Positions 16,786 to 40,500 of a DNA stretch of 64,000 nucleotides are shown here, piece by piece. Each line of letters begins with the position of its first letter. The first letter of the stretch is position 1. The stretch covers positions 37,399,946 through 37,463,945 of the forward strand of contig NC_069135.1 of NCBI RefSeq assembly GCF_026914265.1. Reading direction: 5' to 3'. Position numbers and translations under genes: made by a program. This DNA is from Mya arenaria (Eukaryota; Mollusca; Bivalvia; Myida; Myidae). Below the pieces are notes generated by a model. It was not told where the DNA came from. It did no database searches and worked only from the letters and a program-made list of their open reading frames with translations.

Positions 16786-17421
16786 ATGTTTTCACTGAAA
16801 TCAATCTGGAAGCCTTGGATTGGCGGTGATGCCAACAAGCCTCCTGGAAAGGATGAACACATGGTAATAGTGGATTCACTCATGTTAGAGCTCGAGTTTC
16901 ACATACGAGAGCAGGAACAGATTCTCAAAGATCGTGAACAGGAAGAAAGAAGACGAATGACTGGTGTTGACTATAGCTGGCTCGTCAGTGCTCCTGTGAA
17001 ACAGTATGAAATTCCCCACCTTGAAAGATTGGAACTAGAGGATCTTTGCTACAGAGTTAAGCCACCAGAATGTGGTAAAGTTATATCACTCTTCAGAGAT
17101 TCAATTCTCAATGAGCCAAGAGTTTGTGATATTCCTAAGATTCTCAAAGCTTGTATTCGTCAAGTGGTCGAACAAAGACCTAAGGAGGAGACTCTAACTG
17201 ACTGGGTTACGAAAAGGACATCGAGTCTTATAAATATGAAAATACGGCCTTCGACTAAGATTACACCATTCCACAAAGAAAGTGATGACGTGGAGAGCAA
17301 TACAACAATTGAAACCATATCAAGCCATGTAGATTTGATTACACCTAGTGGTGCCCATAGAAACAACCAATCATTATCATACCACTCACAACCGCACGAT
17401 TTTGACTCACTGCCAGTTTAG
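16786..17421 (+). CDS. RD3: RD3-like protein (retinal degeneration 3 family)
   Basis: Open reading frame of 211 residues. Hallmarks of the RD3 family are seen: an N-terminal acidic helix (LMLELEFHIREQEQIL, residues 32-47), the family signature TGVDYSWL (59-66), then IPHLERLELEDLC (76-88; compare human LSPIERLQLEDVC), PPECGKVISLFR (93-104; compare PSYCGPAILRFR) and a TPF-type motif near residue 160. Human RD3 is 195 residues. Vertebrate RD3 binds and inhibits membrane guanylate cyclases and helps their export from the ER in photoreceptors; a similar role here is inference. The frame is open upstream to a good 3' splice site (TTTTCTTCAG ending at 16764), so a 5' non-coding exon is likely; the Met at 16786 aligns with the family start. 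Unlike human RD3, the conserved domain is not split by an intron. The tail after residue 165 is low-complexity and rich in S, T, H. Confidence 0.85.
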   Translation: MFSLKSIWKPWIGGDANKPPGKDEHMVIVDSLMLELEFHIREQEQILKDREQEERRRMTGVDYSWLVSAPVKQYEIPHLERLELEDLCYRVKPPECGKVISLFRDSILNEPRVCDIPKILKACIRQVVEQRPKEETLTDWVTKRTSSLINMKIRPSTKITPFHKESDDVESNTTIETISSHVDLITPSGAHRNNQSLSYHSQPHDFDSLPV

Positions 17422-25128: not shown

Positions 25129-25387
25129 TAATATTTAAATTAGTTGACAAAAACATATTACAGATTATGCAATAATGCAAGTTTGTATTTTTATTCTGTA
25201 CTGAACTGTAAATGGATGTAGTGTTATATTGTTTAACTACACCACTTCGATACCCACTTTAAATGTATCTTCAACTTAAGTATAATCTTAGTTCAGATGC
25301 ATATTCGGCTTACAAAATATATCTGGATTTACAGTAATTATTAAAGTTCTTGCAAATTCCGCCATCCTTACGTCAAAAATGCTGAAA

Positions 25388-25440
25388 TGACGTTATTTCC
25401 GGTCTGGCAGTACACTGACGTCACTTCCGGTTTGACGTCA
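25388..25440 (+). promoter_or_regulatory. CRE and ETS motif cluster at the Ig-protein start
   Basis: Two perfect cAMP-response elements TGACGTCA (25416-25423 and 25433-25440), a related TGACGTTA (25388-25395) and two ETS cores (TTTCCGG about 25396-25402; CACTTCCGG 25422-25430) lie in the 56 bp before the preferred Met at 25444. Palindromic CREs abutting ETS cores are typical of TATA-less promoters. Their presence argues that 25387-25443 is promoter or 5' UTR and not coding, supporting the downstream start. Confidence 0.5.
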
Positions 25441-25443
25441 ACA

Positions 25444-26409
25444 ATGGCTGTTACGCTGTTAAATATGTGTGTCTTCCTGACTGCCTTGTTCATGATTTGC
25501 ATTTCATTTAGTTCGGCAAGAAGTGGTTATCAGAATTTACATCAAAGACAAAGACCTACCCCTAAACCTCCAACACCTGCAGTGGAATTACGGAACATGT
25601 ACCATTCGCTGGACTTGAAACCTCTGCAACGCATGACCCTAGACTGCAACAGCAGAGAAATGGAACAGCTTTTGCAGAAGCATCCGTTTGTTGAACATCG
25701 CTGGAAACACAATGGGGAAGCGTTTAAGTTGCAACCGGTTAGAATGGAATACATGACGGAAAAACTGACAATAAACAATCTGATGCCACAGGACAGTGGA
25801 ACATACCATTGTATAGCCGAGGAGCCATCGGCCACGCAACAAGTTGTCGCAATTTACGCCACTGTTATTGGTAGGCTTTTGAAGTACACTTACAGAGGTG
25901 ACGACCTTGAACTTGACTGTCTGAGTAACGAATTCGGCAAACTATACCCGAAAGCCATACGCTATTGGATCGATCCGAAAGGAAAACGGGTTTTTGAAAA
26001 ACCGGCAATCGATAATCTTGAAACATTCCCCATAGCTGATGACAGATTGGCGGGAAATTGGACGTGCTTTGTTGAGGATCCAGTTGTTCCAAGAAAATGG
26101 ACGACAGCGAGGCTCCAGGTTTTCATCAGTCCTATACCATCTTTTGTGAAGAGAACAGAATTATTTGTGAAAGGTAACAAAATCGTAAGTTGTATTATAA
26201 TAGTTTTGATGATAGCAGCCTTCCTAATGCTTTCCCAACTGGTTGCAAAACTTTCGGATAAGAGTGAAAATCGCGTGAAAAAGGACATGAAACACATGAA
26301 AAACGTTTTGGGCCTCAAGGATAAGAAGAAAGGGTCAGACGACGATGATGACGATGACGATGAACACCACGAAGACATAAGCGTTGAGGATAAATTTAAA
26401 CATTTCTGA
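25444..26409 (+). CDS. Two-Ig-domain type I membrane protein, intronless in this window
   Basis: Open frame from 25387 to the stop at 26409; I prefer the Met at 25444 (321 residues) because a signal peptide starts there (MAVTLLNMCVFLTALFMICI) and it has the better context (CAACAATGG). Numbering from 25444: first Ig-like domain about 60-140, with Cys68, Trp87 and the DSGTYHC motif (117-123); second Ig-like domain about 145-228, with Cys159, Trp175 and Cys208, and an N-glycosylation site NWT (205-207) beside the last Cys. A single transmembrane helix spans about 247-268, followed by a basic juxtamembrane stretch and a tail with eight consecutive Asp (299-306). The layout is that of a cell-surface Ig receptor or adhesion molecule; basigin/neuroplastin are a loose comparison, but the glutamate in the basigin membrane helix is absent. 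I cannot name an orthologue. A single uninterrupted exon is unusual for this architecture and could mean an old retrocopy. GC and codon use look like a functional gene. Confidence 0.82.
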   Translation: MAVTLLNMCVFLTALFMICISFSSARSGYQNLHQRQRPTPKPPTPAVELRNMYHSLDLKPLQRMTLDCNSREMEQLLQKHPFVEHRWKHNGEAFKLQPVRMEYMTEKLTINNLMPQDSGTYHCIAEEPSATQQVVAIYATVIGRLLKYTYRGDDLELDCLSNEFGKLYPKAIRYWIDPKGKRVFEKPAIDNLETFPIADDRLAGNWTCFVEDPVVPRKWTTARLQVFISPIPSFVKRTELFVKGNKIVSCIIIVLMIAAFLMLSQLVAKLSDKSENRVKKDMKHMKNVLGLKDKKKGSDDDDDDDDEHHEDISVEDKFKHF

Positions 26410-32260: not shown

Positions 32261-33545
32261 ACTGGGTACTTCGCGAAAGGAAAGTCAGTCAAGTTATTTA
32301 AAATATTAAATCATAATGATAAAAGTTACGTATTTGTATTTGGTATTATAACAATATCAATCCGCATGTTTGATACCAATGCAATTGAAAACAACAAGAC
32401 TAATTTTGATGCAAGTTACCCTTTTTGCCTTTTAAGTTAACCTCACAATCACCAAAAAAGAAAAAAAAATCTGCGAATGTTTATGACATTAATTCATCGA
32501 TGTTTTAATTATCAAAACTAATTTTGATTGTATCAATTAAAACATTAAGTGTCATAATAACTTTTTTACAAATATATTCCCCAAGTATAACATTAAAAAA
32601 ATAATAAAATATTGAATTAAAAGTTACTATATTCCAGATTTACAGTATGTTAAAAATGTGTAATTTTAACCGGACTGTCTACCTATTGATACATGTTATT
32701 TATGTTTTTTAACATATTCAAAGTCATAGTAGACTATTGTGGACATTGAAACTGGGCTTATCAATACCGGGTTTTCTTAAGAGAGTATTATATTACATAC
32801 CGTGACGAAAAACCCGGTATTAACATAATCTGGTGCCATAAACTGTGATACCGGCTTTTCCCAATATCGATACAATGTACCGGGTTTTAGCATTACCCCG
32901 GAAGTATCTTAACTGAAATGCCTACAATTTGATTGGCTGATGGGATATCGTGTGACCCTACATGTATGTAATTGTTGGGTTACGTACAGTTCCTACATTT
33001 TATCATTGATACTGCTATATGTAACGAATTGTCCATGATTTTTCAAGTATAATTATTTATTGAAAATAATTTTATTTTAAGTAAGCAAAACATCCTCCGT
33101 AACCTTTTTCTAAGTTTTGATGAATCGGGTCTTAAGGTTTCTAAACCAAGCTGTAAAAAAACGTAGCCTTCGAATTTGGGGGCGAGTTATTAAATACCCA
33201 TTAATTTTGCTCAAAGATTTGTAAAAACAGTATAAATACACTTTTTTGTATCGTGATGTTTCCTTTTTCTTTTATCAGTTTATACAATTGTTTGCTGGTA
33301 AAGTTGTTTTTTTATTAAACATATTTTATAGTGTTGTTTTACAATAATTAATAAGTTGGCTGGTCCATTTTGATCACGTGATCCTTCATGGTACAGCAAT
33401 TTAGACCTATCCCAAACTGATTGCTTAATTCGTAATATTCCAGTAGGTCATGCGGTTTCATTTTCAGCTCGTCTGTTTTTGAAAAAAAATTACGAGCTTT
33501 TGTCGTCACTTGATTGTAGTCGGAGGAGGAGAAGGCGTTCGTTAG
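32261..33545. other. No gene; small palindromic motif
   Basis: AATACCGGGTTTTC at about 32765 and its complement at about 32810 may be ends of a short hairpin element. Otherwise AT-rich. Confidence 0.4.
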
Positions 33546-34330
33546 GTTTTGCGTTTAGGTCACTTACATGGAAACTATCAAAGCTATCACTTCGATACTT
33601 GGGGAACTTGTTCATATAATACCCTTTTTCACATTGTACCCTAAAGATCCTGAGTCTCACCTATTTTGGGGGGTAAAAACATAAATTTTAATGAATTTTG
33701 GTTCATTTTGAAAATTTGACATAGCTTCTTCAATTTGTTGTTGGATTGATTTCATTTTTTTTTTCACAGACGATAAATGGAAAATGCCTTCACAAAGTCA
33801 AACGGGTTTTTGAGTCACACATTTGGAAGGGTAGGGGGAGGGTGGGGGATATTTTAGTATTTTTGGACTTTGAAATGTTTAGCTAGTCTGTTTTTTTAAG
33901 TTAAGTTTTGCGTTTAGTTCACTTGAATGGAAACTATCAAAGCTATCAATTTGAAACTTGGAGAACTTGTTCATCTAACACCTTTCTTCGCATTGTACCC
34001 TAAAGATGCTGAGTCTCACCTGTTTGTTTTTTTGTTAAAAAGCATAAACTTTGCTAGTTTTTGGTTGATATTGAGGGCTGGACATAGCTTCTTCATTTCT
34101 TTTTTGGATTGATTTCCAAATTTTTACAGACAATAAATGGATAATGCCTTTATGAATATATCAAATGGGTTATTGAGTCTCACATTTGGAAGGGTAGGTG
34201 TGGGATATTTTAGTATTTTTGGACTCTGTAATTTCTAGCTAGTCTATTTTTTTAAAGTTTTATGCTTGGATCACTTACAAGCAATCTATCAAAGCTATCA
34301 CTTTCATACTATGGAATACCTGTTCACTAT
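33546..34330. repeat. Tandem repeat of about 355 bp, 2.2 units
   Basis: Units start GTTTTGCGTTTAG at 33546 and 33905 and GTTTTATGCTTGG at 34257. Each contains GGAAACTATCAAAGCTATCA and CACATTTGGAAGGGTAGG. Confidence 0.7.
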
Positions 34331-34482
34331 CAAATATACAATATGAAATAAATGAACCGAAAAAGGATAAAATCAGACGAGCGTTCAGCAACAGCAAGCA
34401 GTGCTCTTCTTTTGAGTTTATGGTAAAGATTAATTTGAATAAAGAAGCTAATTTTTTATTCAAACCATAAGAAAATATAATA

Positions 34483-34623
34483 GGGTTATTAGTACTGCGT
34501 TTTGATCCGGGGATTGTATTCGAATCGAGTGGATTTTTGCAGATTCGGATTTCTTGAGGCGCAAGCAAAAATCCACGAGAGTCGAATACGACATTCCGGA
34601 TCAACACGCAGTACTAATAACCC
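34483..34623. mobile_element. Short palindromic MITE (56-bp inverted ends)
   Basis: GGGTTATTAGTACTGCG at the left and its complement at the right; arms of about 56 bp, roughly 86% matched, around a 28-bp loop. It lies 19 bp from the large palindrome. Confidence 0.6.
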
Positions 34624-34642
34624 TTTTATTATATACATAACT

Positions 34643-36714
34643 CACCGTGTCCAATCGTTACTGGTAGCGGTGGCTAATGGTAACGCCTGTGTAGTGGCTA
34701 AATAACGCCAGTGTGCGGCTAATTTTCGGAGGGTAAGGTAAGAAAATTGAAAAAAGTAATCGACAAAGTTTTTGTTTTTCTAATAAGAATAGGTGGCGGA
34801 TGTGGCCATACAATCATACTTTCAGGTCATATGTTTCTTTTTGCCCAGACTTTTGAGTGTTTCCATATCATCGTGGAAAACCTCACCCTGTTTGGAGTGA
34901 TATTTCGATTTTCAATTTTAAAATCAAGATTCTAGCATATCTATCCATCTTAGGATTCAATTAAACCCTTTAAAGTTTTTATATTTATACTTGTAAACAT
35001 TAAACAACATTCTGATTGTCCAATAAAATATAATGTTACTTCGGCAGACCCTTTTAAATAACGATTCGGTGGTAACGCATGTGAAGTGGTGCGCTTTTTC
35101 TGTAACGCCTGAGGAGGTGGTGCAAATACTTGCACTCCATAGCTTAATTTTTTGTCAAATATTCCATTTAAACGCCAATCTTTACATAGATTTCTCAAAA
35201 CAAATGCCCGTTAAAGACCAGATGACATTTATTTACAAATTTATCATTTTAATCTCAACGCATTTATGTGCATTTATTCGTATACTATTCCCAAATTGAT
35301 AACTACAATGCAAAACATTGCATAAATATCCTTTTAGTTTGGTGTTAAATGTTTCATACTTGGGTCTGTTTACTAGTAACTGGCAAAACATGAGTCTGCA
35401 AATTACATTTATTTTAGAAACATGTTCATTTTGAGAGAAAATAGGATAAAATAAGTACTCTTGTGAGGTTCGAACACGTGACTGTAAAATAATGACCCAT
35501 TAATCTTAAAGAGCAGAGCGCAAACAAAAAGGCTATTGGGAATTTAAATAAAGCAATAAAAAACACATACATCGTCTTTGCCATATGTGTACATCAAACG
35601 CACAAAAAATGCGTTTTAGTGTCCATATGGGTATGTTAAGGAATGATACCTTACAGGCTAAACATATCTCGGATGTCCCACATAATAATACGGACATGAA
35701 TGATATGTTTAGCCTGTAAGGTATCATTCGTTAACATACCCCGCATCTTTTTGTGCGTTTGATGTACACATATGGCAAAGACGATGTATGTGTTTTTTAT
35801 TGCTTTATTTAAATTCCCAATAGCCTTTTTGTTTGCGCTCTGCTCTTTAAGATTAATGGGTCATTATTTTACAGTCACGTGTTCGAACCTCACAAGAGTA
35901 CTTATTTTATCCTATTTTCTCTCAAAATGAACATGTTTCTAAAATAAATGTAATTTGCAGACTCATGTTTTGCCAGTTACTAGTAAACAGACCCAAGTAT
36001 GAAACATTTAACACCAAACTAAAAGGATATTTATGCAATGTTTTGCATTGTAGTTATCAATTTGGGAATAGTATACGAATAAATGCACATAAATGCGTTG
36101 AGATTAAAATGATAAATTCGTAAATAAATGTCATCTGGTCTTTAACGGGCATTTGTTTTGAGAAATCTATGTAAAGATTGGCGTTTAAATGGAATATTTG
36201 ACAAAAAATTAAGCTATGGAGTGCAAGTATTTGCACCACCTCCTCAGGCGTTACAGAAAAAGCGCACCACTTCACATGCGTTACCACCGAATCGTTATTT
36301 AAAAGGGTCTGCCGAAGTAACATTATATTTTATTGGACAAACAGAATGTTGTTTAATGTTTACAAGTATAAATATAAAAACTTTAAAGGGTTTAATTGAA
36401 TCCTAAGATGGATAGATATGCTAGAATCTTGATTTTAAAATTGAAAATCGAAATATCACTCCAAACAGGGTGAGGTTTTCCACGATGATATGGAAACACT
36501 CAAAAGTCTGGGCAAAAAGAAACATATGACCTGAAAGTATGATTGTATGGCCACATCCGCCACCTATTCTTATTAGAAAAAACAAAAACTTTGTCGATTA
36601 CTTTTTTCAATTTTCTTACCTTACCCTCCGAAAATTAGCCGCACACTGGCGTTATTTAGCCACTACACAGGCGTTACCATTAGCCACCGCTACCAGTAAC
36701 GATTGGACACGGTG
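34643..36714. mobile_element. 2.07-kb foldback palindrome with 5-bp target duplication
   Basis: Arms 34643-35668 (1026 bp) and 35702-36714 (1013 bp) are inverted copies, about 98-99% identical, around a 33-bp spacer. The main difference is a 14-bp insertion in the left arm near 35608. The ends are identical (CACCGTGTCCAATCG) and the element is flanked by TAACT at 34638-34642 and 36715-36719. No transposase. Mirrored short open frames in the arms are by-products of the symmetry. Confidence 0.8.
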
Positions 36715-36719
36715 TAACT

Positions 36720-37599
36720 GGTTAGATCAATTAAAAGCCACATGTTTTCATAATAAATGTCATTTTAACGACGCACTGTTTTGTTTTATTACGTCATTTT
36801 AACATCGCGCAACGATACTTGTTATGACGTGACGTCACAAGAGTGGAATACGGCCGTATTGCACTGGAGTGGAATACGGACTACCTTATTTTGCGATATG
36901 TATTGCGTGTGGATTTATGATGGGTATATAATAAAACGTAATATTCTCTTTGGAATTCCTAAAAAAAGGTTATGGTGATAATTAAAGAAGTCCAACTTCA
37001 ACAAACTGTTAAAAACAAAGGTTAAACTGTTTGTATTTAAACGGAAAATGACGTCATGAACATACGGGTACACAATTATGACGTGTGCGACGTCGTCATT
37101 TTAAGTCGTGCTAAAAGTTTGGTGTTAACTTTATTGCTTTTAACATGTTGAAATCATTGATAATTTATATATGTATATATGTATATGCACTCTCGCATTT
37201 ATCAATTATTACCATGCCATGTGTTATGTTATTGTAATAACGATGAACTGTATATGTTCAAGTTAACAATACATGTTCTGTTCTGTTCTGTTCTATAATT
37301 TGATTCCCTCAAATATCATCACATAATTCATTCTACTTATACAAGAAAGTAAAGTGATCATGACAGATCCTGTATATATAATAAGCAATGAAAACCTTTT
37401 TTTACGCATTTTATTCACAGTTTTCCAAAGTACACGAGAGAAAAAGGATGCATTGAACATTACGTAATTTTGCTAAGAATATACTGCACAATAAAGTAAT
37501 ATAAATAACACAACAATTTGATAATAAATGGACGAAACATTCCATTACAGAACGAAATAACACGACATGGCTAGTAGGTCAGATATTTAAACAATTATC
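36720..37599. other. GST copy A 3' flank
   Basis: 37020-37599 is homologous to the 3' flank of GST copy B (45010-45564), for example ATGACGTCATGAA against ATGACGCCATGAA and GACAGATCCTGTATATA against GACAGATCCTATATATA. It includes the likely 3' UTR. Confidence 0.55.
37410..37415 (-). terminator. Candidate poly(A) signal, GST copy A
   Basis: AATAAA on the minus strand about 185 nt after the stop, in the text GTGAATAAAA that also occurs downstream of copy C. Confidence 0.45.
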
Positions 37600-40500
37600 C
37601 TAGAATGTAGTGACGGGCCTCTTCTTCAAGTATTCCTTTATCTTTGGTAGCTGCTCGACCTTCTTTCTGTTGGCGTCCAACAGTTTGTAATCTTTCAAAA
37701 GTTCCACAATTTGAGAATTTTCTATGAAGGCGTAAAGCATAAGGTCGGCAACTGTTAACTGAAAGAAATATTAGGATTTAAAAATCAAACTCGATCATCG
37801 GAAATAATAGGTTTCGAGACATTTAGATTAATGTTCGATTATGTTACCAATCGAATAATATATATTAAACAACATCAACATGTTTACAGGGACTCGCTCA
37901 TGTTTTTGACCAATTCTTTTTCCCGCTAATGCCCATAAAACACTCGTATTATGCTACTATTATTTCACTCTTTGTTACCCAAATTGCAGAAAAAATACAA
38001 TTAAAGTAAAAATGAACGGTTTAGTGGGGAGCGAATACACATCGGTACAGTTAAGAGAAAAAAAGAAAACTGACAACAAAACCGCTTGCCCACATGTACT
38101 CTTACATACCCTGAGTGCTGTGGGATAATTTAACCATTTCGATTTATGTTGAAAAACGTTACTTTACGCTGTTCAAAAAATGTGGACTTCAAGGCCAATA
38201 TTTGAGCATATTTTTTATCAACATATTTTAAAGGTTACAGCAGTCAGTATATTAGTTTTAACACTTGTTATGCTTTGCCACACTTTATTTCGTAATAAAA
38301 AATGCATTTTATAAAACATGAGCGAGTCCCTTTACGGTAAGTTAACTGAACAATGAACTGACATTAAAGTAAAATACTATGTTGCTGGCATTACATATGT
38401 AAAGAAAATAACAATAAATACATTGCAACTGTTAAATTTGTTGAAGTTTGTATTTTCCTTCAACTAAAATGACCCATATGCATTTTTAAAGCCAAAAAAC
38501 TTGTTTGTATTTTATTCATCAGATTTAACTTAAATTTAAAATGATTGCCTCGATTGGCCTGTATCATTAATCGGTCATTGAAATGCATGGATTCATTTAG
38601 GCACGACTGAGTATAGGGATAATAGTTATTTTTAATACGACCCATCCCCAATTTCTTAAATGTTGATCTTGAGGGCCAGTATTCCATATTGATCTCATTC
38701 ATATCATTAGACATGCCTCAGTCATTCAATTAAGCCTATTGGTCAGCTAAATATACAAGCCAATCAAAACACTTAAAATTGATTTCAAGTTCAATCTACA
38801 TAAGTTGTTTATTGAATACGACCACAGAGTGCATACATTTTATAAAATGCCTACATTCTCACTCATCAGAGGTTTGATAATGATAAATCTACGCATAGTA
38901 ACATCTCTCAGGTGATAGAAAAAGCTGGTTCAGTATCTTCTGAATTTTTTTTTTATCTTACCGACGATCCAACCGCAAAGCCGCTCTTTCCGCCCTCTTT
39001 AACAAGGTTTTCTAAAAATCCCAGATATTTTTTAGCGTCACCTGCCAAGAACTCTTCCCTTTTCTTGGCCTGAAATTTAAGTCATTCACAGTAAGTCTTT
39101 GCTGAGCCGAGTTGTTAACTCCACATGTAGTTACTTCCCTTGTCAATCGGATCACCTCGACCATTTTTCCATGGCCTTCCAGTACTGTTTTTATTTATCA
39201 ACCTATATATTGTGCACCTCTAAGCGCGACTTAATGTTATCCCTACTTTAAAGGTCAATTTTGTTATTACTGACAAGACTGGTTTTCGGATAAATTGTTT
39301 ATATGCCCAAGTCTTGAAAATTCTCATTAATTCATTAAAAGATATACACCATAAACTGTGTCTTAACCTCGGACTTGGGGTCTATATTTAATTACATCGT
39401 GAGTCTGAATTTCAGACTCAGACTCTTTAACAACACAATTAAAAATCAATACTGATTTAAGTGTATATGGGACAGGGCTTATTATGTGTTCTCTTTAAAC
39501 TTCAAGCCTTACAATGATATACTTAAATTATATACTAACCTTTTCAGCTTCGTCCTTAAGAAAGGCAAATTTTAAGACCGCGCTTAAGAGATCTTGGGTG
39601 GTGTCAATAATCTGGTCCACTAACGCCATTTCAGTGTTACCCTTGCCATACAAGTCTGAAAAAATAAATTCATAAATCAGGATATGGTATACTGGATACC
39701 GCCTATGAACCAGTTAATTGTAACTACGCCCCCAGGTCCGGGGATTAGTGGGGACTTTGACTTTCGGTCCAGCCTATTCCAGGTGAAATCTCCGCCCTGC
39801 AGGGACAAACTGCTGGTAAAACTCCCGCTATATGCCCCTCACACCCCGGGGAATCATAGTTAAGGCCAATTTCCCGATATTTTCGACGCGAAAACAAAAC
39901 CACTTCTTTCACTCAGCACTGCGGGGCCAATTGGAAGGTAAAACATCCCGGGACGGGTTCGATTGCCGGCATGGGCGCATTTGAGTTTAATTTGTAGTCA
40001 TCATGCCGGACAAGTTGGTTTCTTCACATACTCCGATTTCCCCCACAACACAAGACCGCACTCTCGCTTAACACTGCACAAACGAGACCGATTAGTATAA
40101 TGCTGTAACAACTGGTTTCACAAGTCGTAGTTAACTTTTAAGTTTAATCTAATTTTGATATTAAACAAGATACTAACCAAACTCTCGTGCGAGGTACCTC
40201 GCTATCGATACGCTCTGTGAGATCTTCGTCTTTCCACCCACTTCCAACACCGGCAGTGTTCCCTGTGGCATAACTGTGGACAAAAGTATTTTATAAAACA
40301 TGAAAGAGACTCTTTACATATAAAAATAAACTTAAAATTTCAATACGTTTAAAGCGTGCGTTTTTCAATGTTCCAAATATTAAGGACTAGTTTTTGACCT
40401 TTTCATGTTGTTTAAAAAAAAGATTTTTTATTGTCAATAGCTTGCTTGTCGAAGGACGTATTGTGTCCAGTTTGTTCACTTTTTCCAATCAGTTGTGAGT

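Follow-up and report, generated by a model that had tools for sequence, protein, structure and literature searches.

A young 2-kb palindrome in Mya arenaria, very probably a double-5′-end foldback of a long-TIR DNA transposon family with an inferred YqaJ-bearing transposase

The closest analogue of the element described here is Galileo of Drosophila, a member of the P superfamily that was formerly classed as Foldback-like. According to the available text of two reports, Galileo moves by cut and paste, carries terminal inverted repeats (TIRs) of 0.5 to 1.2 kb that recruit internal sequence and hold multiple binding sites, and includes copies reduced to two TIRs (PMC4168063, PMC3688188). Galileo has a THAP domain and target-site duplications of 7 to 8 bp, whereas the family studied here has duplications of 5 bp, and among its relatives no THAP domain is reported in the two full-length proteins and a YqaJ domain lies inside the transposase. 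The ISL2EU group (PHIS/Harbinger-like) also encodes a YqaJ exonuclease domain protein, as stated in the available parts of two sources (PMC4482050, PMC9179366); there, however, YqaJ occupies an ORF of its own and the target duplication reads AT, in contrast to the single large protein and 5 bp found here. KolobokP and KolobokD are animal transposons that have gained an extra nuclease, and KolobokP is rich in bivalves, but these nucleases are of other types (His-Me finger; DEDDh) and KolobokP has long direct repeats (available text of PMC9587614). Transib and RAG-like (RAGL) transposons share with the present locus TIRs that start with CAC and a 5-bp duplication; according to the available text (PMC7204232), the TIR similarity between RAGL elements of different species is confined to approximately 13 to 15 terminal bp, whereas the similarity between an element's own two TIRs extends over 0.5 to 1 kb here, and the transposase is a different one, with no RAG1 match. 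CAC ends and a 5-bp duplication, common to Transib, RAGL and the present locus, are therefore insufficient on their own for assigning a superfamily.

The window, a stretch of 64,000 nt (C14:37399946-37463945), was analyzed together with the genome from which it comes (1.216 Gb, 18 contigs). At C14:37434588-37436659, it contains a palindrome that is very probably a non-autonomous foldback composed of two 5′ ends, derived from a low-copy, long-TIR, cut-and-paste family whose transposase is inferred to be large and to bear a YqaJ domain. The features of the palindrome are given below in window coordinates.

34638..34642, no strand: target-site duplication TAACT, left copy; present once in the paralogous empty site (L078)
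34643..36714, no strand: whole palindromic element, 2072 bp; its boundaries match 24 genome termini
34643..34649, plus strand: terminal CACCGTG, left
34643..35668, plus strand: left arm, 5′-end type, arm positions 1-1026, with content beyond 712 and G at column 709
34681..35108, plus strand: four subterminal TAACGC repeats of the left arm (starts at 34681, 34703, 35073 and 35103)
35668..35702, no strand: centre, the family's native 5′ sequence, turned round
35668..35672: centre tail CTCGG, 5 nt; the junction lies between 35667 and 35668
35673..35678 and 35692..35697: 6-bp stem in the centre, ATGTCC and GGACAT, with a loop of 13 nt
35702..36714, minus strand: right arm, likewise 5′-end type, arm positions 1-1013, with one 15-bp deletion
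36708..36714, minus strand: terminal CACCGTG, right (CACGGTG on the plus strand)
36715..36719, no strand: target-site duplication TAACT, right copy

The initial annotation had described a 2-kb palindrome with near-identical arms of 1026 and 1013 bp, CACCGTG ends and TAACT on both sides, and all of this was present, with the coordinates exact. Alignment of the left arm with the reverse-complemented right arm gave 1008 matches, 3 mismatches and 17 gap columns, the latter comprising one 15-bp gap (the deletion in the right arm) and two single bases. The substitution identity of the arms thus amounts to 99.7%, and the 15-bp deletion makes up most of the difference between them. Both ends of the palindrome read CACCGTGTCCAATC, with TAACT adjoining each. 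No ORF of at least 150 amino acids (aa) was listed within 34643..36714, and a scan of window positions 33000-38500 against Rfam yielded no match at gathering scores. The TAACGC repeats are possible candidates for transposase-binding sites, and the arms, if transcribed, would be expected to form a long hairpin and so a source of double-stranded RNA.

The history of the insertion could be read from a paralogous segment (L078) that lies on the same chromosome at a distance of 0.85 Mb. The 480-bp left flank matches C14:38288607-38289088 at 98%, the right flank matches C14:38289084-38289285 at 99% over its initial 203 bases, and the two matches overlap by 5 bases. The paralogous site lacks the palindrome and contains one TAACT; when the flanks were joined accordingly (141 bases), 140 positions matched and none mismatched. 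This empty site with a single TAACT indicates that the 2072 bp were inserted as one unit with a 5-bp duplication. Two random 5-mers of the window are identical by chance with a probability of 0.0017. The palindrome is a complete-unit insertion flanked by a 5-bp target duplication, and the duplication proposed in the initial annotation was thereby confirmed.

The surroundings of the insertion are repetitive as well. Directly left of the palindrome, window 34475-34638 constitutes a short inverted-repeat element whose 34-nt arms (34477-34510 and 34596-34629) are 94% complementary, and a copy with 95% identity lies at C8:49005001-49005165. On the right, the palindrome sits at the edge of a dispersed repeat of approximately 220 bp (window 36717-36937, starting inside the duplicated TAACT), which was found at 38 other places with 92 to 97% identity when 40 of 3075 candidates were scored. 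Further to the left, window 33541-34310 is a degenerate tandem array of three units spaced by approximately 355 to 360 bp, and more than 30 further places carry similar units with 82 to 88% identity.

When one arm was used as a query, 28 pieces were found in the genome. A search with the terminal 26-mer, allowing up to 3 mismatches, yielded 24 termini distributed over 15 places, none with more than 1 mismatch, while the reversed-pattern control yielded none. The family ends read CACCGTGTCCAATCG, and the termini start with CAC in 23 of 24 cases and with CAT in the remaining one. Nine places are two-ended (the window, L009, L011, L013, L014, L015, L018, L019 and L020) and six are one-ended (L010, L012, L016, L017, L021 and L022). 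Since common flanks revealed the pairs L009/L010, L013/L014, L016/L017 and L018/L019 to be segmental duplicates, these were folded, which left seven independent two-ended insertions. The initial annotation had counted copies lacking 5-bp duplications as evidence against its reading; six of the seven are flanked by exact 5-bp repeats (TAACT, ATGTA, TTAAA, GCTAT, TTTCA and TGTAT) and the seventh, L011, by the 6-bp repeat AAGAGT. The six 5-bp target sites have A or T at 24 of 30 positions, compared with 65% in the window. Kolobok transposons target TTAA. Two candidate groups, Mutator, with a duplication of 9 bp, and Polinton, with a duplication of 6 bp and AG ends, were dropped on these grounds.

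Arms of different copies diverge by 1.39% on average (range, 0.19 to 3.49%; 194 pairs, each with over 200 compared sites, omitting L010, L019 and the pairs L013-L014 and L016-L017), and on account of this low mean the family looks young. The two arms of the window copy differ by 0.28% (2 of 718 compared sites). The initial reading of a young foldback-type element was borne out. Within the other elements, the arms differ by 0.52% (L009), 0.85% (L011), 1.69% (L013), 1.55% (L014), 1.29% (L015), 0.66% (L018) and 2.63% (L020); in L013, L014 and L020, an element's own two arms are thus further apart than the between-copy mean.

The longer copies of the family carry a transposase gene in its 5′ part, and they have a distinct 3′ end whose inverted repeat measures 712 bp. 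At the 3′ end (L011, L013, L014, L016 and L017), this repeat extends as far as position 712, beyond which a common 3′-specific sequence begins, and the 5′ end continues from 712 past 1018 into a leader and the transposase ORF. The two types of ends can also be told apart at alignment column 709, which is C in all six 3′-type arms and G in all eight other arms reaching the column (duplicate pairs counted). Both arms of the window copy have G at this column and also have in common a private variant at column 155. Together with the content past 712 in both arms, the G at column 709 identifies the window copy as two mirror-image 5′ ends, and both arms are accordingly assigned, by their sequence, to the 5′-end type. 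A second double-5′ copy is L009, whose loop measures approximately 1.7 kb; in L018, the arms adjoin directly; and in L020, they are extended to approximately 1.2 kb by common sequence not seen in the other copies. These arrangements, along with that of the window, indicate that the terminal repeats of this family were rebuilt more than once.

Neither DNA nor ORF searches of the genome found an autonomous copy of the window's family, and the family's 3′-specific stretch (5 places) and interior (7 pieces) led only to the known copies and to one weak stretch at 69%. Either a relative therefore moves the family or the assembly lacks its source copy. In four copies with the same ends as the window copy (L009, L010, L011 and L015), pieces of a single ORF are present, the longest of which, in L015, comprises 325 aa; the ORF never exceeds this length and the 3′ coding part of the transposase is absent from the family. 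A Pfam scan of this ORF matched no family. A genome search with the ORF, however, gave 62 matches, of which 7 were the family's own pieces and 55 were relatives with 25 to 52% identity, several of them in long open frames. Two relatives have uninterrupted ORFs, of 1386 aa (L069, intact at C12:58633776-58637933) and 1350 aa (L070).

Three relatives could be traced to both ends; of L071, a second copy of the C7 family, only the 5′ end was followed.

L067 element: 7442 bp; TIR of 580 bp at 98%; ends CACCGGGGAG; duplication GAAAA
C7 element: 10,084 bp, intact ORF of 1350 aa; TIR of 478 bp at 97.7%; ends CACCGGGGAT; duplication CCTAC
C12 element: 10,913 bp, intact ORF of 1386 aa; TIR alignment spanning 488 columns, with 81% identity; ends CACTGTGAGG; duplication GTTAT

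All three have CAC(C/T)G ends, TIRs of approximately 0.5 kb and 5-bp duplications. The window's family shows a related transposase, CAC(C/T)G ends, TIRs of at least approximately 0.5 kb and a 5-bp duplication, and by these common traits it probably belongs to the same YqaJ-bearing group of this genome.

The YqaJ domain exceeded the Pfam cut-off (22 bits) in L036 (32.3 bits), L037 (37.7 bits) and L068 (26.0 bits), L036 being a fragment of the L069 gene. Pfam did not list it in L033 or in full-length L069 and L070, although the region is covered; its absence from full-length L069 may be a filter effect. When the family profile was compared with solved structures, the exonuclease 3syy was matched over the YqaJ region (E value of 8.8e-5). 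The motifs SPDG and EIKCP, residues expected of a PD-(D/E)XK nuclease, are present in all five alignment rows covering them (L069, L070, L068, L037 and L071). The YqaJ part is known from the relatives alone, because the ORF of the window's family has no 3′ coding part.

A second Pfam family, PF21787 (P-element-like/TNP-like transposase, N-terminal RNase H part; cut-off of 24.6 bits), passed its cut-off in one gene only, with 26.4 bits in L036 and 25.2 bits in L069; a piece of the gene scored 23.3 bits, L070 scored 20.9 bits, under the cut-off, and no match was reported in the C-terminal ORF of L068. The PF21787 match begins at profile position 59 to 64, and a conserved FDGKK segment is located approximately 440 residues before the match start in L036. 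Because the beginning of the profile is unmatched, FDGKK may supply the missing first RNase H strand. In L036, FDGKK is at residue 330, YqaJ at 520-664 and SFDGQW at 843, an order in which YqaJ would separate the two residues that are putatively the first and second catalytic aspartates of an RNase H-like core. The palindrome's enzyme presumably belongs to these large transposases, two of which were read as intact ORFs of 1350 and 1386 aa; in them a YqaJ (PD-(D/E)XK) nuclease domain would lie between the two aspartates, in a core that resembles P-element transposases weakly. No match to the 1386-aa protein was found in viral contigs. No description of this transposase family was found in a literature search that covered few subscription papers, and the available text of a bivalve transposon survey makes no mention of YqaJ (PMC10294476).

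Long perfect palindromes are a known assembly hazard, and a local inverted duplication or an assembly artefact, with no transposed element involved, could in principle produce such a structure. The clean empty site with one TAACT, the matching termini (0 or 1 mismatch) at 14 other places and the absence of any duplication of the flanks rule this out. A transposed element granted, the initial annotation had considered it a Transib/RAG-like foldback, which would have been moved by a Transib or RAG1L transposase. The 5-bp duplication and CAC start are indeed typical of that group, and one relative ends in CACTGTG, close to the RSS heptamer. However, the coding fragments in the same-ended copies belong to a different transposase family, and where a Transib- or RAG1-like transposase had been anticipated, the relatives carry a YqaJ-type nuclease; the TIRs of 0.5 to 1 kb also speak against it. 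The Pfam RAG1 family (PF12940) gave no match with E values up to 10 in the family fragment or the two full-length relatives, and no RAG1 or Transib chain was among the solved structures matched by the family profile with E values up to 10. A genome search with PF12940 carries no weight here, since it was silent in this genome and in its control genomes alike. The coding fragments refute this kinship in the main, and we regard it as very improbable. A tempting but unsupported link is thus removed, and the case shows that CAC ends combined with 5-bp duplications are not in themselves a hallmark of the RAG/Transib group. A true member of the P superfamily near Galileo, with the 5-bp duplication as a local variant, overlaps our preferred reading, which leaves the superfamily open. 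The long TIRs and foldback-like copies of Galileo, its recruitment of internal sequence into TIRs with multiple binding sites, and the score of PF21787 just above the cut-off in one gene are in favour of such a member. Nevertheless, the duplications are of 5 bp in six of seven insertions and 6 bp in one, not 7 to 8 bp; Pfam reported no THAP domain in the full-length ORFs of L069 and L070 (the ORFs alone, a possible upstream exon aside); and YqaJ lies inside the protein. Comparison by hhalign with three canonical P-like proteins encoded in this genome (3 loci of 39 PF21787 genome matches) was not significant, nor was a 3-sequence HMM built from them (500 shuffles per piece, many of which scored at least as high), and the family profile matched no P-element chain among solved structures. 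Given these points, we consider ordinary P-superfamily membership unlikely, if far from negligible. The YqaJ-bearing group shows neither the 7- to 8-bp duplication nor the THAP domain of P elements, and the similarity of its core to theirs is weak. Tentatively, and with rather more doubt than conviction, we suggest that its transposase may stand at the base of a superfamily not described so far, or else of a P branch that has diverged strongly; its RNase H core would have a lambda-exonuclease/YqaJ-type nuclease built in between the first two aspartates, which perhaps processes the ends.

The formation of the double-5′ structure has to be weighed separately. The clean flanks imply that the palindrome formed elsewhere and was then transposed to its present site. 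The native 5′ sequence to position 1059 (L009, L011, L012 and L015) contains the order ATGTCC, 13 nt, GGACAT, CCGAG, TCTTACG. The strand in the window copy keeps this native order through CCGAG and then reverses into ATATGTTTAGCC, which is complementary to the native stretch whose last position is 1024; the turn-round point is 5 nt beyond the native 6-bp inverted repeat. We propose that, after or during excision, repair synthesis could have copied approximately 1.06 kb from the 5′ end; the nascent strand could then have folded back on the 6-bp inverted repeat and primed copying of itself, and the resulting palindrome, with transposase sites at both ends, would later have been mobilized in trans into the present site. 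The position of the turn-round next to the native repeat is suggestive of such snap-back copying before transposition, and no more than suggestive because 5.5% of positions lie equally near such a repeat by chance. Alternatively, recombination or gene conversion between the ends of an internally deleted copy could have produced the two 5′ ends. Galileo copies are reported to be reshaped by inter-copy exchange and to recruit internal sequence into their TIRs (available text of PMC4168063), and in the present family, the common non-family sequence that lengthened both arms of L020 and the second double-5′ copy, L009, with its long loop, point in the same direction. The tight turn-round of the window copy (35 nt), adjoining the native inverted repeat, argues against recombination, a route that we take seriously without favouring it. 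This alternative concerns the formation step only. A small turn-round of its own was observed in the one-ended L012 (2059-2308), where positions 1-78 of L015:1790-3809 are followed by an inverted copy of positions 191 to 16; it is possibly another snap-back event.

The interesting part of the finding is the transposase family. If the proposed architecture is correct, the built-in nuclease may resect or process broken ends and thereby favour end-copying repair, which would give rise to long TIRs and palindromic copies. The intact-looking genes, which appear to join a DDE-type core to a resection-type nuclease, would permit a direct test of the origin of kilobase-TIR foldbacks, and a very recent, near-perfect 1-kb palindrome with a sequenced empty site makes a good substrate for studies of palindrome formation.

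YqaJ domains as such abound in this genome, where 150 matches were scored out of 311 candidates; many of the matches are in near-identical ORFs of 394 or 551 aa, which probably belong to other transposon groups. Elsewhere in the window, two host-gene-like ORFs were found, one for an RD3 family protein at 16786-17421 (PF14473, E value of 5e-34) and one for an immunoglobulin-domain protein at 25387-26409 (PF00047, E value of 5.8e-11).
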